NCBI RefSeq assembly: GCF_927312905.1
Contig: NZ_CAKMHQ010000022.1
Location: forward strand, 62,001-126,000
Direction of reading: 5' to 3'
DNA from: Candidatus Nitrotoga sp. 1052
Lineage (GTDB): Bacteria > Pseudomonadota > Gammaproteobacteria > Burkholderiales > Gallionellaceae
Length of the DNA: 64,000 nt
The notes under the pieces are model-generated. The model did not search any database and had not been told where the DNA came from. It saw only the letters and a program-made list of their open reading frames with translations. Shown here piece by piece: positions 23,906-59,429 of this stretch. The position numbers were made by a program, and so were the translations under genes. Numbering within the stretch: the first letter of the stretch is position 1; the number at the start of each line of letters is the position of its first letter.

Positions 23906-24089
23906 TTTGGCTTCCTTAAACATGAAAAAAAACTTATTGAGAGCTTAAATAAATTAAAGCAGCATGCGCTAACGCACGTATAAGGGCATAGATTATCCCT
24001 GAAATGAAACTCCTGCGCAAATTTATGTACATCGTTTGCCGTCCACCCCCTTATTCCGGTATAGTTCTACCTGCCGTTTAAACCAATGG

Positions 24090-24264
24090 AAGAACATGCT
24101 GCCTGGTAAGTAGTAGATACAGGCGCATTGCCGAAGGCGCAACACCCGTAACCGCTCAGGCTCAAGAACTGTTGGCACAGGCAAATCTGGAGAGTGCTGT
24201 TTACACAGCCACCGAAGGGGCACACGGATTTATTCGTAATCTCTCAGGTAAAGAGGACAGATGG
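24090..24264 (+). ncRNA. Tandem glycine riboswitch
   Basis: The second aptamer is textbook: CTGGAGAG, then ACCGAAGGGGCA, then CTCTCAGGTAAAGAGGACAG, with a short ATCT/AGAT closing stem. Upstream, GCCGAAGGCGCAAC, CCGCTCAGG and AAGAAC match the core of a first, more divergent aptamer, joined by the usual short linker. The 5' edge is approximate. The RNA binds glycine cooperatively; with the terminator that follows at 24265 it should let gcvT-gcvH-gcvP be transcribed when glycine is abundant. Confidence 0.92.
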
Positions 24265-24300
24265 GGCGAGGCAGAATATTTCTGCCTCGCCTTTTTTATT
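24265..24300 (+). terminator. Intrinsic terminator serving as riboswitch expression platform
   Basis: GGCGAGGCAGA and TCTGCCTCGCC form an 11-base stem with a 5-base loop, followed by TTTTTTATTTTTT. The stem starts 3-4 bases after the glycine aptamer's last conserved block and ends shortly before the gcvT ATG, so glycine binding can plausibly decide whether it forms. Confidence 0.93.
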
Positions 24301-37832: not shown

Positions 37833-37842
37833 TTAAATAAAG

Positions 37843-38015
37843 ACCCCCGCCTGTGCCGTTGACCCAACATCTTGAACCTGGGTTCAAGAGAGCCGGTTCC
37901 CAGTTACATCAGGTACATCCACAAGGGATGCGCACAACAGTAACATTAAGGGTCGCGACCTAAGCAGAGCTTATTGGTCCAAAGAATTATGAGCCTGACG
38001 AACACCGCAGGGGAA
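37843..38015 (-). ncRNA. ssrS: 6S RNA
   Basis: About 172-nt RNA that mimics an open promoter and sequesters sigma-70 RNA polymerase in stationary phase. The closing stem pairs 5' CCCCTGCGGTGTTCG with 3' CGGCACAGGCGGGG. The 3' half contains CTTGAACCCAGGTTCAAG, like the E. coli hairpin CUUGAACCAAGGGUUCAAG, and the 5' half contains GTTCGTCAGG. Its place right after zapA is the conserved location. Ends are estimated from the closing stem. Confidence 0.88.
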
Positions 38016-38017
38016 AC

Positions 38018-54578: not shown

Positions 54579-55373
54579 CTACTCCCCTTGAAACATGAAT
54601 GCGGTCAAAATAAAATCCAAAAACAAAATTGTCAGCGACGACTCGACTACTGTGCGCGTGGTTGCACCGGACACCCCTTCTGCGGTGGGTGGTGCATCAT
54701 AGCCTTCGAACAGTGCTATGGCAGTTACTGCCACTCCAAACACGAAGCTCTTAATTATCCCGTTCACTATGTCGTGCTGAAAATCAACCCCGGCCTGCAT
54801 TTGCGACCAGAACGAACCTTGATCTACGCCGATCAGCACAACCCCCACCACATATCCACCAAATACACCCATGGCAGAAAATAACGCCGACAGTAGCGGC
54901 ACAGATATAACCCCAGCCCAAAAACGAGGTGCAACCACGCGTGCTATCGGGTTGATCGCCATCATTTCCATCGCGGAAATCTGTTCGGTGGCTTTCATCA
55001 AACCAATCTCCGCAGTCATGGCCGAACCAGCACGACTCGCAAACAGCAGGGCAGCCAGCACCGGCCCCAATTCGCGCACCAGGCTCAGCGCTACGAGTGA
55101 CCCCAGTGCAGATTCAGCGCCATAGCGTTTAAGCGTCTCATAGCCCTGTAACCCCAATACCATGCCGACAAATAAGCCGGCCACCAAAATTATAATAAGC
55201 GACATCACCCCACTAGAGAACAGCTCCTTGATGGTCAAGTGGAAACGCCGAAAACTAATTCCGGAATAAAGCAGGATTAGCAGGAAGAAGCGGGAGGTAT
55301 ATCCGATACGCCATACCGCATTCACAATACGATGTCCTAGTGACCTCAGATGTTCAACGATCGTCATCGCCAA
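54579..55373 (-). CDS. mlaE: Mla transporter permease MlaE
   Basis: Permease (264 aa, five to six helices) of the MlaFEDB phospholipid ABC transporter. The family signature ELGPVLAALLFASRAGSAMT with the following TAEIGLMKATEQISAMEMM is intact. Overlaps mlaF by ten bases and adjoins mlaD. Confidence 0.95.
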   Translation of the reverse strand: MAMTIVEHLRSLGHRIVNAVWRIGYTSRFFLLILLYSGISFRRFHLTIKELFSSGVMSLIIILVAGLFVGMVLGLQGYETLKRYGAESALGSLVALSLVRELGPVLAALLFASRAGSAMTAEIGLMKATEQISAMEMMAINPIARVVAPRFWAGVISVPLLSALFSAMGVFGGYVVGVVLIGVDQGSFWSQMQAGVDFQHDIVNGIIKSFVFGVAVTAIALFEGYDAPPTAEGVSGATTRTVVESSLTILFLDFILTAFMFQGE

Positions 55374-56173
55374 GGCCGCAAATTCAAATCTTGCCAGTAA
55401 TCGCCGCAGGGATAATGGAATGGAACCGGACCGTCCATTTCGCCATGCACGAATTGATGCACGAACGGCTTATCGGAAGAGCTGATTTCAGCTGGAGTTC
55501 CTTCTGCAACAACCACCCCATCGGCAATAAAATAAATATAGTCAACGATCTTAAGCGATTCCTGCACGTCATGCGTGACCACTACCGAAGTCGCACCCAG
55601 CGCATCGTTCAGACGACGAATGAGATTACCCACCACGGTAAGTGAGATGGGATCCAGTCCGGCAAATGGCTCGTCGTACATGATCAACATCGGATCCAGC
55701 GCCACCGTTCGCGCCAGCGCCACGCGTCGCGCCATGCCGCCTGAAAGCTCAGCAGGCATCAGATGATGTGAGCCGCGCAAACCCACCGCATTCAGCTTCA
55801 TCAGCACTAAATCCCGGATGATCTCTTCCGGCAGATCAGTATGCTCGCGCATCTGAAACGCAACATTGTCATACACTGACATATCCGTGAACAGCGCTCC
55901 AAACTGGAACAGCATACCCATCCGGCGACGCATGAGATATAAACCTTTATGGTCAAGCTCATGTATCACCTGCCCATCAACCTTCACATAGCCGCTGCTT
56001 GGCCTGAGCGCACCGCCGATAAGCTGTAGCAATGTAGTCTTGCCGCAGCCGCTGCCGCCCATAACAGCGATCACCTTGCCCTTGGGGAAAGTGAGATTGA
56101 CGCCTTTTAGTATGGGGCGGCTGTCATAGGCAAAATTGACGTCGCGAATTTCGACCAGCGCTTGAGATGACAC
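55364..56173 (-). CDS. mlaF: Mla transporter ATPase MlaF
   Basis: ATPase (269 aa) that powers MlaE. Walker A MGGSGCGKTTLLQLI, signature ELSGGMARRVALART and Walker B IMYDEPFAGLDPIS are intact. First gene of mlaFEDCB. Start MSSQALVEIRDVNFAYDSR is the family start. Confidence 0.95.
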   Translation of the reverse strand: MSSQALVEIRDVNFAYDSRPILKGVNLTFPKGKVIAVMGGSGCGKTTLLQLIGGALRPSSGYVKVDGQVIHELDHKGLYLMRRRMGMLFQFGALFTDMSVYDNVAFQMREHTDLPEEIIRDLVLMKLNAVGLRGSHHLMPAELSGGMARRVALARTVALDPMLIMYDEPFAGLDPISLTVVGNLIRRLNDALGATSVVVTHDVQESLKIVDYIYFIADGVVVAEGTPAEISSSDKPFVHQFVHGEMDGPVPFHYPCGDYWQDLNLRPWR

Positions 56174-56459
56174 GTATCAACACCTTGATTGTCCGGTAGT
56201 CGGGCATTCTAAACCATGCTCTCGCTTAATCGCAACATTAGCCACTACCGGTGTAGCGCGCAAAGAAGCGGTCTGGACTTGTGACACATGATTTGTCCGG
56301 TCTAACCCAAATTGCCCATTTATGTATTCTTGCAGCGTGTCGCGCTTGCTGTTAAGGCGAACAACAATTCCCCGATATTGGCGAAAAGGCTTGACTGCAT
56401 TTTCATAAAGTAGCGGTACAGGTTCTCAGAAACAGTCATTACCGTTGGAAATCATCCCG
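56174..56459. other. Intergenic region upstream of mlaF
   Basis: About 285 bases with no gene I can support. It should contain the mlaF promoter; the part from about 56250 on may be further eroded mobile DNA continuous with the relic at 56460. Confidence 0.35.
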
Positions 56460-56560
56460 CCACTATGAACATTCGCTTCAGGTTCCATGCCAGCGCTGCC
56501 AGATTCATCACGCCTTTTGAATTGGACTTCCTCCGCACCTGCCTCACGATGACGCACTTG
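56460..56560 (-). pseudogene. Transposase C-terminal remnant (IS5/IS1182-like)
   Basis: The minus strand encodes KSNSKGVMNLAALAWNLKRM and then FIV before a stop. Many IS5- and IS1182-group transposases end with a segment of the form (L/V)xxLAxNLKRM. The catalytic part is absent. It lies directly after the attC-like site of the cassette, whose right half may have been damaged by this insertion. Confidence 0.45.
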
Positions 56561-56635
56561 TCCTTCTCTTATCCTTTAGCTCTGCAAATACATGGCCACA
56601 GGACTTTCACCTGCGAAGTAACGTGCCATGCACGG

Positions 56636-56699
56636 CATACCGCTTAAGGTTAAGTGGAGCACCGCTTTTAGCGCGCTCCACTCGAATGCAAAGTTAGAC
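56636..56699 (-). repeat. Putative attC recombination site at the end of the HEPN gene cassette
   Basis: On the minus strand the 7-base R'' core GTCTAAC (RYYYAAC) starts 10 bases after the HEPN gene's stop codon. It is followed by TTTGCATTCGAGTGGAGC, a small loop, and GCTCCACTTAACCTTAAGC, so GTGGAGC and GCTCCAC pair. This layout (R'', imperfect palindrome, TTAAnnTTAAGC, then R') is like aadA-type attC sites. The R' core expected as GTTRRRY reads GGTATGC, so that half appears degenerate. Confidence 0.55.
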
Positions 56700-56709
56700 C
56701 GCTTGTGCT

Positions 56710-57627
56710 TCATGGTTTGCCTAAGGTGACTGCTCGAAACTCACAGAGGCTCAATATATCCGGGAAGAGCGACGCAGCCAACGAGAGATGAGTGTTGATT
56801 CTTTGCATTTCTTTCTCGGGCGTAGAAGGCGCAAGATTTTCCCGAAGTCGTTTGTCCAGGTGATTGAAGGCGGACTCGAAGATTTCGGCCTGCTCGGTTG
56901 GAGGGATGGCTCGTAGGTGAAGGCTGTGCACGAGCAGGTTCCTTCGCGAGAGCAGCCACTGTAGACCATCTTCTCGTTCTGATTTTTTGTAGGCCCAGAC
57001 TGCAATCCAAGCATCTGTGGTCTGAAGTTCCGGCTGCATCCGGAGAACATTTGCTCGAATGCGATCAGCAACTGCAACGAAGCCATCGCGCTCGTATAGA
57101 CGAATGGAGAAAAACACGAAGTCAAGGACTTGACCGATTCGGTCCCAGAAGCCAGCCAAACGAATGAAACACGTTTCAGCGTGTTCCCAAAATACACTGT
57201 CAGTGTTCGAGGTGATAAGCTGCTGGAGCTTCAAGTCTCCCGGCAGCTTTAGCAGGTCGGGTTTGGATCGCAACAGATGCGCACCGATCATGAAGGTTTG
57301 GGCGCGATAGACTGAGCGCCGAGTGCGATAGAATACGGCGATTGCCTCCTGTAGCGCGGCCGACAAATAGGTGTCGTATTTTGGCTTTGGCTCCTCGAGT
57401 CCACGAATGATCAATCTAGGCGGACCGCCAAAGGCATCGACCAGTTTGTCTACTCGGTCTTGTAATTGCCTTTGTGCTTCGCCTGTTTCGAAGAGAGTAG
57501 CTGGCTTTGGGGAAAAATATTCTTCGAGACGGGCGAGGATCAAGCTCTCGTTTGCTGCGTGAGCCAATGCGTCACCGAGAACATCGGCATACCGATCGTA
57601 ATCTTGGTCGTCAGGCGAGTCTGTCAT
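56710..57627 (-). CDS. HEPN-motif protein of unknown function in a gene cassette
   Basis: Mostly helical protein of 305 aa, start chosen at 57627 because AGGAA lies 5 bases upstream (the frame stays open to 57675). It contains Arg229-Asn-Leu-Leu-Val-His234 (RRNLLVH), the Rx4-6H motif of HEPN ribonucleases, after a helix WDRIGQVLDFVFF. The nearest family I recall is the Cthe_2314-like HEPN group, unverified. HEPN proteins are commonly RNases in toxin-antitoxin and phage-defence systems. No antitoxin gene is adjacent. It is flanked by two attC-like sites. Confidence 0.75.
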   Translation of the reverse strand: MTDSPDDQDYDRYADVLGDALAHAANESLILARLEEYFSPKPATLFETGEAQRQLQDRVDKLVDAFGGPPRLIIRGLEEPKPKYDTYLSAALQEAIAVFYRTRRSVYRAQTFMIGAHLLRSKPDLLKLPGDLKLQQLITSNTDSVFWEHAETCFIRLAGFWDRIGQVLDFVFFSIRLYERDGFVAVADRIRANVLRMQPELQTTDAWIAVWAYKKSEREDGLQWLLSRRNLLVHSLHLRAIPPTEQAEIFESAFNHLDKRLRENLAPSTPEKEMQRINTHLSLAASLFPDILSLCEFRAVTLGKP

Positions 57628-57639
57628 AGGTTCCTGAGG

Positions 57640-57722
57640 GTCTAACGAATAGCGTTTATCTGCCGCCCTCCCCAAACTTGTTAAAACCGTAACCTATCGG
57701 CGACGGATAAACCTTGTTGAAC
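57640..57722 (-). repeat. Putative attC site preceding the HEPN gene cassette
   Basis: On the minus strand GTTCAAC (R'', 57722-57716) and GTTAGAC (R', 57646-57640) bracket an imperfect palindrome: GTTTATC pairs with GATAAAC, and TCGCC with GGCGG further in. The 83-base length is in the attC range. GTTAGAC lies 12 bases before the HEPN start codon, as at the 5' end of integron cassettes. R'' and R' are not fully complementary and the spacers (3 and 7) are uneven, so this is a candidate. Confidence 0.5.
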
Positions 57723-58094
57723 TGAATCACCGGAGAGGTACCTATGAAGATTGTAAGGTTTTGAAGCGTGGCGTCAACCAAATGCCATGAAGGTGCAGCA
57801 ATTGGCGAAGAAGAAACGGATGTCCTGGAGAAACTTTGTGTCCTTATCCCGGCACCAGAATGCCGCACAAACCGGCCAATCAAACCTCCATCCAGGACGC
57901 ATGGGCGAACGCATCCCGGGCTGGTGCGAACGCTCAACTGTTGGACGAAACGAGCAACGAAAAACATTTCGTCCGGGCAAACGGCTCAATTCAGCGAACA
58001 TTAGGTCGGTAAGCAAATTTATTAACGTTCGGGTTGATGAGTCAATAGAACAAGCTATAATAACTTTTTCTTAGTATCTAACGACGACATACCC
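57723..58094. other. Possible decayed gene cassette
   Basis: Two minus-strand frames overlap here, one ending at 57774 and one ending at 57656 inside the putative attC, the latter being where cassette genes often end. Neither has a recognisable family or a clear ribosome-binding site. GTTAGAT on the minus strand at 58082-58076 could mark a cassette boundary. I regard the stretch as a broken or non-coding cassette at most. It also holds the promoter region of the plus-strand gene at 58095. Confidence 0.3.
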
Positions 58095-59429
58095 ATGCCA
58101 AACGACGACAAACTCACACCTAGTACCGACAACCCTATGCCTGTTGTCGGCAAGCCATTGTCTAAAAAAGACATACCCATGATTCCGATGAGTGACTGGG
58201 ATATTGATGACAATCCTCCCCTGGTTCCCGCTTATCCCGATGTTCCCAAGGCTCTCAACGAGAACCCCAATCTGGTTGCCGACCCCAGAAACTATCCAAA
58301 GAAAAAACCGGTCAAGCGTGAATCCAGCCCTTCCGGGTGGACAGATATGTCACATATTCTGCCGCCGGAAATACATCCCTTGTATAGAAAAGGATGGCTC
58401 GGCGCGCTTGAGTTGAATAACCGCGTTGTTATGGCGCCAATGACCCGCAGTCGGGCTGGGCTTGGCAACGTGCCGAATGAGATGAATGCAATGTACTACT
58501 CTCAACGCAGCTGTGCTGGCCTGATGATTTCCGAACCCACTCAAGTTTCTGCTCAAGGCATTGGTTATCCGGGCACACCGGGCATATCCACCCGCGAACA
58601 AATAGAAGGCTGGAAAAAAGTGACTGCCCACGTTGCCAGAACGGGGGGCAAGCTTTTTATGAACCTATCACATGTTGGCCGAATCTCACATCCATCGCTG
58701 CAGCCATTCCAAAGTTTGCCAGTCGCACCCTCTGCTATTCAACCGGCGGGGGAGGTTTTCACACCAAATGGAATGATGCCGTACGTTGCACCCCGTGCGC
58801 TTGAAATTGCTGAGATGGCGGGTATCGCCGAGCAATATAGGCAAGCTGCGCTTAATGCCGAAGAAGCATGGCTGGACGGCATAGAAATAGATGCCGCGAA
58901 TGGCTATCTGCTCGACCAGTTTTTGCGGGATAGCACGAATCAACGGACGGACGAGTACGGTGGCTCAATTGAGAATCGCAGCCGCTTGCTGTTTGAAGTA
59001 ATTCAGGCGGTATGCAGTGTGTATCCATCGCAAAAAGTCGGCGTTCGTCTTTCCCCGGTCAATCCGTTAAACGACATTTTCGACTCAACACCGCAAGAAA
59101 CCTTCGAGTACGTCGCCGAACAGTTGAATCGTTTCAATCTGGCTTATATACATGTAGTTGAGGAACATCCTTCAACATTCAATTTTAAGCGCTTACGAAG
59201 CTTATTTAGAGGCCAGTACATAGCAAATGGCGGTTACGATGCAGCACGTGCCGAGGCAGCGATTGTTGAAAAGACCGCTGACTTCGTATCATTCGGCGCT
59301 CTCTTTATTGCTAACCCAGATTTACTATTGCGGTTGCGGGAGCGCAGAGATTACAACCCACCAGATACGGCAACGTTCTATGGCGGCGACGCCGCTGGCT
59401 ACATCGATTATCCATCGTTGCCATTTTAA
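58095..59429 (+). CDS. Old Yellow Enzyme-family NADH:flavin oxidoreductase with altered active site
   Basis: FMN-dependent ene-reductase homologue (444 aa) with a TIM barrel from about residue 85. Conserved parts are NNRVVMAPMTRSRAG, SHVGRISHP, NGYLLDQFLRDSTNQRTDEY and IENRSRLL. In OYE the substrate carbonyl is held by a His and a His/Asn pair (HxxN). Here the sequence is Asp266-Ala-Ala-Asn269, so the His is replaced by Asp; Tyr271 is kept. An extra 84 residues rich in Pro, Asp and Lys precede the barrel. A later Met at 58347 would give a normal-length protein. Confidence 0.88.
   Translation: MPNDDKLTPSTDNPMPVVGKPLSKKDIPMIPMSDWDIDDNPPLVPAYPDVPKALNENPNLVADPRNYPKKKPVKRESSPSGWTDMSHILPPEIHPLYRKGWLGALELNNRVVMAPMTRSRAGLGNVPNEMNAMYYSQRSCAGLMISEPTQVSAQGIGYPGTPGISTREQIEGWKKVTAHVARTGGKLFMNLSHVGRISHPSLQPFQSLPVAPSAIQPAGEVFTPNGMMPYVAPRALEIAEMAGIAEQYRQAALNAEEAWLDGIEIDAANGYLLDQFLRDSTNQRTDEYGGSIENRSRLLFEVIQAVCSVYPSQKVGVRLSPVNPLNDIFDSTPQETFEYVAEQLNRFNLAYIHVVEEHPSTFNFKRLRSLFRGQYIANGGYDAARAEAAIVEKTADFVSFGALFIANPDLLLRLRERRDYNPPDTATFYGGDAAGYIDYPSLPF

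Follow-up and report, generated by a model that had tools for sequence, protein, structure and literature searches.

Integron cassettes are generally promoterless, and the target of IS91 is GTTC or CTTG, next to the ori end. Cassettes lying outside integrons at genomic sites, through attG insertion, have reportedly been described by Loot et al. in 2024. An 'Integron cassette HEPN' family (PDB 3jrt) is set out in the available excerpts of Anantharaman et al. 2013 (PMC3710099), where the authors propose a stress or dormancy RNase role for it. For ISCR28 in sul4 modules, the accessible part of a further study (PMC12772301) states that HattCI calls an attC at or just past the end of the IS91-like element; the data behind that call are given there as not shown, and the authors weigh the element's own mobility against passive shuffling with cassettes.

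Within the 64-kb window, the whole stretch of Candidatus Nitrotoga DNA analysed here, the original prediction had placed a HEPN-motif protein on an integron-type cassette flanked by two attC-like palindromes. Read along the minus strand, the locus runs from an old-yellow-enzyme-like gene (58095..59429, plus strand) through an element copy, a core site, an ORF, an attC and an IS remnant to an mlaF-like ABC ATPase gene (55364..56173, minus strand), both flanking genes being named by eye. The core site GTTAGAC (57640..57646), in which the 5' boundary of the cassette falls between the leading G and TTAGAC as judged from the sequence and from comparison with 106 junctions, is followed after exactly 12 nt by the start codon at 57627, and the ORF (56710..57627, 305 aa) ends exactly 10 nt before GTCTAAC (56699-56693), as had been predicted. 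The palindrome expected behind GTCTAAC, with GTGGAGC/GCTCCAC and TTAACCTTAAGCG, is present on the same strand. The resulting attC (56635..56699, minus strand) has a proper R'' box (GTCTAAC) and stem, but its last core box, R', reads GGTATGC (56641-56635) instead of GTTRRRY, and because of this degenerate box the right border of the cassette is altered. The whole unit, TTAGAC ... AAGCG, spans 1005 bp by its sequence boundaries (56641..57645, minus strand). Core site, ORF and attC position together support the proposed single-gene cassette, and with one gene between core site and attC and old-yellow-enzyme-like and mlaF-like genes on the flanks, there is indeed no adjacent antitoxin. Between the attC and the old flank, a C-terminal piece of an IS transposase recognised by eye (56452..56634, minus strand) is probably the remnant of another insertion. 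Rfam gave no match at the locus, either at the gathering threshold or at E<=1, and an automated repeat search reported zero inverted repeats. Elsewhere, the window holds a tandem glycine riboswitch and a 6S RNA (24077-24270 and 37840-38016), both ordinary. The locus is a real one-gene integron cassette, ordinary in kind; judged from its sequence it would be mobile, with excision and integration by IntI as candidate reactions.

An attC covariance model was built from 17 other attC sites, nine found by script and eight by eye, and its pairing was checked. Over the 64 kb of the window the 3' site (56699-56635, minus strand) was the only match at E<=10, scoring 12.3 bits (E 1.2 over 64 kb; 0.032 over 1.7 kb with filters off), and BLAST of this site against plasmids gave no match. 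The second attC-like palindrome of the prediction (57640-57722) does exist as a palindrome, but the model did not call it, giving 3.6 bits or less and those in pieces, and it proved to be the terminus of an IS91-family element.

This identification came from the 173 bases that precede the cassette start codon, which have nine matches in the window's own genome and are matched in 16 of 60 family genomes. Fourteen of the 17 matches that were followed end on the same base, at the boundary between GCTATTC and GTT, and then diverge. Thirty-one element copies were traced to the core site. Left extents differ among copies, and in full-length relatives, which measure about 2.5 kb, genes for an IS91 transposase and a tyrosine recombinase are present as well; upstream on the same strand, the longest copies encode Phage_int_SAM_4 and Phage_integrase as well as Zn_Tnp_IS91 and Y2_Tnp domains (Pfam; L084 for the transposase domains). 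The transposase lies upstream in 24 of the 62 copies with more than 1500 bases of upstream sequence and has been lost from the window copy; its end and the junction are 327-432 bases apart in 27 of the 28 listed matches. By eye, the consensus right end reads GTCCAAC-AAG-GTTTATCTGCCGC-(33-35 nt)-GCGGCAGATAAAC-GCTATTC, and full-length elements begin with GTTGAACTAAA... on the left. In the window copy (57647..57995, minus strand), whose right end is the cassette junction, the terminal hairpin (57654..57722, minus strand) consists of GTTCAAC (57722-57716), AAG and two arms (57712-57700 and 57666-57654), and is followed by GCTATTC (57653-57647). A reading of this copy as 5'-truncated was rejected, since its left end was located at 57995 (GCTGAATTGAGCCG), in the same place as in G433, G430 and G427; the copy is therefore internally deleted, and its left end is mutated. 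BLAST of the element end against plasmids gave no match. In two other loci, L062 (G427:C4) and L095 (G437:C61), an element end, genes, a second element end and a further gene stand in tandem, and the middle segment of that arrangement may be excisable as a unit.

A promoter-like site, TTGACG-16-TACAAT, was found by pattern match inside the window's element copy, directed outward toward the cassette (57750..57777, minus strand). In 38 of 84 copies the 200 bases that precede the end pattern contain TTGAC-N-(15-18)-TANNWT, in 34 of them at -133 to -136, compared with 41 of 4200 control windows; a promoter at this place would read into the cassette. The site also bears on a reading of the locus as a relic, in which the cassette is no longer excisable and the arrangement has no present function. 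Such decay is suggested by the GGTATGC box of the attC, by the internal deletion and mutated left end of the element and by the IS remnant, recognised by eye, that follows, but all 305 codons of the reading frame are uninterrupted, and neither the promoter-like site nor the core site is missing; we regard this outcome as improbable.

The junction seen in the window recurs. An exact 20-base pattern of the element end, picked without GTT, was found in 105 stretches of genome contigs and three stretches of viral contigs; the records include Nitrotoga, Gallionella, Accumulibacter, Rhodoferax, Ramlibacter, Polaromonas and Ideonella and are mainly from Betaproteobacteria. Of the 106 distinct junctions, 96 continue with GTT, 72 with GTTRR and 41 with a full GTTRRRY, against a chance expectation for GTTRRRY of about 6 of 96 (1/16); the remaining 65 of 106 lack the full box, and the fourth base is A in 78, G in 15, C in 7 and T in 6. 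In 73 of 95 cases the first 150 nt past the junction contain an ORF start, versus 266 of 512 random GTTRRRY sites, a modest excess. When the attC model was run on 100 of the 108 element-end loci it gave 59 matches at E<=1, of which the 50 at E<=0.036, all distinct and four of them training sites, were counted and nine weaker ones (E 0.11-0.84) omitted. The element's own strand carries 49 of these 50 hits, 37 downstream and 12 upstream, while the remaining one is downstream on the opposite strand. A same-strand hit follows downstream in 27 of the 100 loci, at a distance of 270-1247 bases in 24 of them. None of the 50 hits falls on an element end, where the model gives 6.6 bits or less (6.6 in L107).

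Left ends of the element were also inspected for neighbouring integron sites. Five of 16 clearly abut an attI or attC, seven counting weaker calls, and nine of 16 showed no recognised att site. An attI lies at the left flank in L187 and L172 (86% and 72% over 134 nt, against the attI region of the window's own genome), and attC-like flanks are clear in L108 and L169 (both found by script) and L143 (found by the model), all three of which helped train the attC model, and weaker in L094 (found by script) and L161 (by eye), neither of which the model called. The set of 16 omits the window-locus copies L037 and L041, the variant L012 (an attC-model hit on the opposite strand) and motif matches inside right ends or elsewhere (L056, the second match of L109, L126, L133, L142, L149, L165 and L173).

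In all 13 elements having both ends, of 20 tried, the first 16 left-end bases pair with the right inner segment, scored as the best of five offsets, through 11-15 pairs with a 3-base spacer; controls averaged 7.9 pairs, and one of 2600 reached 13 or more. Position 12 of this pairing is C:G in ten elements and G:C in three; these last are Accumulibacter elements related to one another and may reflect a single event. Given this pairing, joined ends would fold into an attC-like two-stem figure. The element end resembles an attC in plan, without membership by the attC model, and since the model makes no call there, recognition of the element end by IntI is putative.

An association of this kind raises the question of whether element or cassette came first. 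The IS91-family element could insert at cassette boundaries, attI or attC, so that the cassette was there before it and the element merely lies beside; this reading requires a rolling-circle nickase with a GTTR-type target. It draws on G433:C93, where the element sits between an attI and the next gene with intI past the attI, on L108 and L169, where the element follows a cassette's attC, on the attC model's silence at the element end, and on the GTCCAAC box beside the hairpin, which is complementary to GTTRRRY. Guide/target pairing of that sort is known in some HUH transposases. A short sequence target alone, however, would not yield 49 of 50 attC hits on one strand, and comparison of genomes points the other way. 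At its cassette locus the window's genome has the left end of the element in common with G433, G430 and G427; the sequence that follows differs, and of these four genomes only the window's own has this cassette there. A further comparison took in 20 pairs of copies, in several of which only the element sequence is related, and in two pairs both flanks are common and different genes stand behind the retained element. In the first, G430:C9/G422:C23, an attC lies behind the genes of both members, called by the model in G430:C9 and by script in G422:C23; in the second, G430:C15/G310:C3b, the script found no attC behind the genes, and the element end of G310:C3b is degenerate. No exchange was seen in G422:C47/G310:C8 (identical throughout), in G427:C28/G000:C14 (common over the first 512 nt) or in G422:C32/G430:C17, which differ by a deletion within the second gene, and the remaining pairs lay beyond judgement within the sequence covered. 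These cases, few as they are, appear to favour a resident element with changing cassettes, and we consider prior presence of the cassette unlikely. In G430:C23 (L037), the stretch from the mlaF-like gene to the element left end holds glyoxalase and GFA family genes, named by eye, in antisense orientation to the element.

The cassette had been described as lacking a visible integrase, which holds within the window but not for the genome: a genome profile search found an intact integron integrase gene on another contig (C67:555-1496; 488 bits versus the TIGR02249 cut-off of 265), adjoined by an attI-like region, one cassette and one attC. A second integron integrase gene (G000:C85:26872-27813; L016) is broken by four stop codons; its contig also bears attC sites, and genes for a tyrosine recombinase and an IS91-type transposase were recognised there by eye. 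Across the genome the attC model matches 27 sites at E<=1, five each on C73 and C85, a count that covers 150 scored candidates of 606 from a first look and includes four training sites. The five on C73 (G000:C73:255-3337) all lie on a single strand and are probably a cassette array. Among 19 genomes of Candidatus Nitrotoga, the genus to which G422, G427, G430, G437 and G453 belong, intI exceeds the cut-off in 12; G416, G422 and G441 have element copies present, yet gave no intI match at E<=1e-60.

The identity of the cassette protein was approached through its motif. The predicted Rx4H motif is present as RNLLVH (Arg229-His234), the only Rx4H in the protein, and RRNLLVH forms an overlapping Rx5H. 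Since shuffles of the protein contain Rx4H in 47% of cases (R[NDH]x3H in 6.6%), the motif alone is weak evidence. Its form is the right one, with N after R where HEPN motifs have a polar residue such as N, according to the available excerpts of PMC3710099. The sole Pfam match at E<=1 is likewise a HEPN family, HEPN_Cthe2314 (PF18730, residues 149-180), but at E 0.089 and 13.2 bits it falls below the cut-off of 27.1. NCBIfam gave one weak match, to a sigma D regulator (E 0.095; 12.6 bits versus a cut-off of 139), and PADLOC gave none for this protein. No convincing relatives were found among genome contigs, plasmids, 399 genomes of the order, viral contigs, phages or PDB sequences, and 369 genomes of the class yielded, besides the protein itself, three short matches, all of them marginal (E 0.001 to 0.0095) and none convincing. 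A single-sequence AlphaFold model of very low confidence (pLDDT 37) is helical and places the motif near a predicted helix end.

The protein may be an orphan helical protein that is no HEPN RNase and carries RNLLVH by chance, for which the frequency of the motif in shuffles, the want of relatives and of any family above threshold, and the poor structure model all speak; against it stand the HEPN family as only Pfam match, the N after R and the predicted position of the motif near a helix end, and we put its chances not far short of even. We rate the protein as a candidate and its HEPN identity as plausible, with odds somewhat above even. Seven cassette proteins behind other element copies, chosen by eye and hence a biased sample, include two TIR proteins, Abi_alpha, an AAA_21 ATPase, DUF4062 and GIY-YIG, six having a Pfam family and one none, and with defence-type proteins at other junctions a defence role for the protein studied here is reasonable. 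The first ORF past the element end in L192 (likewise L059, G416:C12) encodes a 165-aa protein with a HEPN-type motif, QRNELSHSL, and no Pfam match at E<=0.001.

Taken whole, the best explanation joins capture of a cassette at a resident element end to a HEPN-type RNase as its product, and we give this combination about an even chance. The one-gene cassette would have been taken up by a resident copy of the IS91-family element, at its right end; in full-length form this element also encodes an IntI/XerC-type tyrosine recombinase. The element end offers a hairpin beside a box that complements the core site of integrons, and the outward promoter would drive the captured gene. The agent of capture would most likely be the integron integrase whose gene lies on another contig and, less likely, the element's own recombinase. 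The product would most likely be a metal-independent RNase of HEPN type and abortive-infection kind, with no adjoining antitoxin gene.

A cassette-borne HEPN protein had been singled out as noteworthy, but such proteins are already known from the 'Integron cassette HEPN' family in the available text of PMC3710099. Newer than the HEPN cassette itself is the junction at which integron cassettes meet an IS91-family element that carries a tyrosine recombinase, a junction both exact and recurrent. From it we draw a tentative proposal, which we would not expect to hold in full: that in one lineage of IS91-family elements carrying a tyrosine recombinase the ends imitate an integron site and can fold into an attC-like double stem when they meet, that copies scattered over the chromosome, each with a promoter, act as landing sites where single cassettes, some of them of defence type, are captured, exchanged and expressed with no intI beside them, and that the element could itself travel as a cassette. 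If this were true, scattered single cassettes whose intI is far away or absent would be accounted for by an element that provides docking site and promoter together, the origin of attC-like sites would become testable, and the HEPN cassette would be one example among several defence-type genes found at such junctions.

In the literature, searched by listings, no account was found in which IS91-family elements sit at integron core sites and the cassettes there have been exchanged. The 'Integron cassette HEPN' family, as it appears in the available excerpts of PMC3710099, resembles the present case in being a single HEPN-motif protein on an integron cassette; the protein here has no sequence similarity to 3jrt or to any PDB HEPN chain, and phmmer against PDB chains at E<=10 returned only an unrelated dynein chain (E 0.81). 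The accessible part of the ISCR28 account (PMC12772301) describes neither promoter-bearing dispersed copies nor cassette exchange, unlike what is seen for the element here. With the IS91 family and ISCR the element shares Zn_Tnp_IS91 and Y2_Tnp, a fixed hairpin right end and copies with shortened left parts; it differs in its extra tyrosine-recombinase gene, in a core-like left end (GTTGAAC) and in a flank that reads GTT followed mostly by A or G, in contrast to the GTTC/CTTG target of IS91. As in attG insertion, cassettes are found outside integrons, but the site used here is the repeated end of a mobile element.
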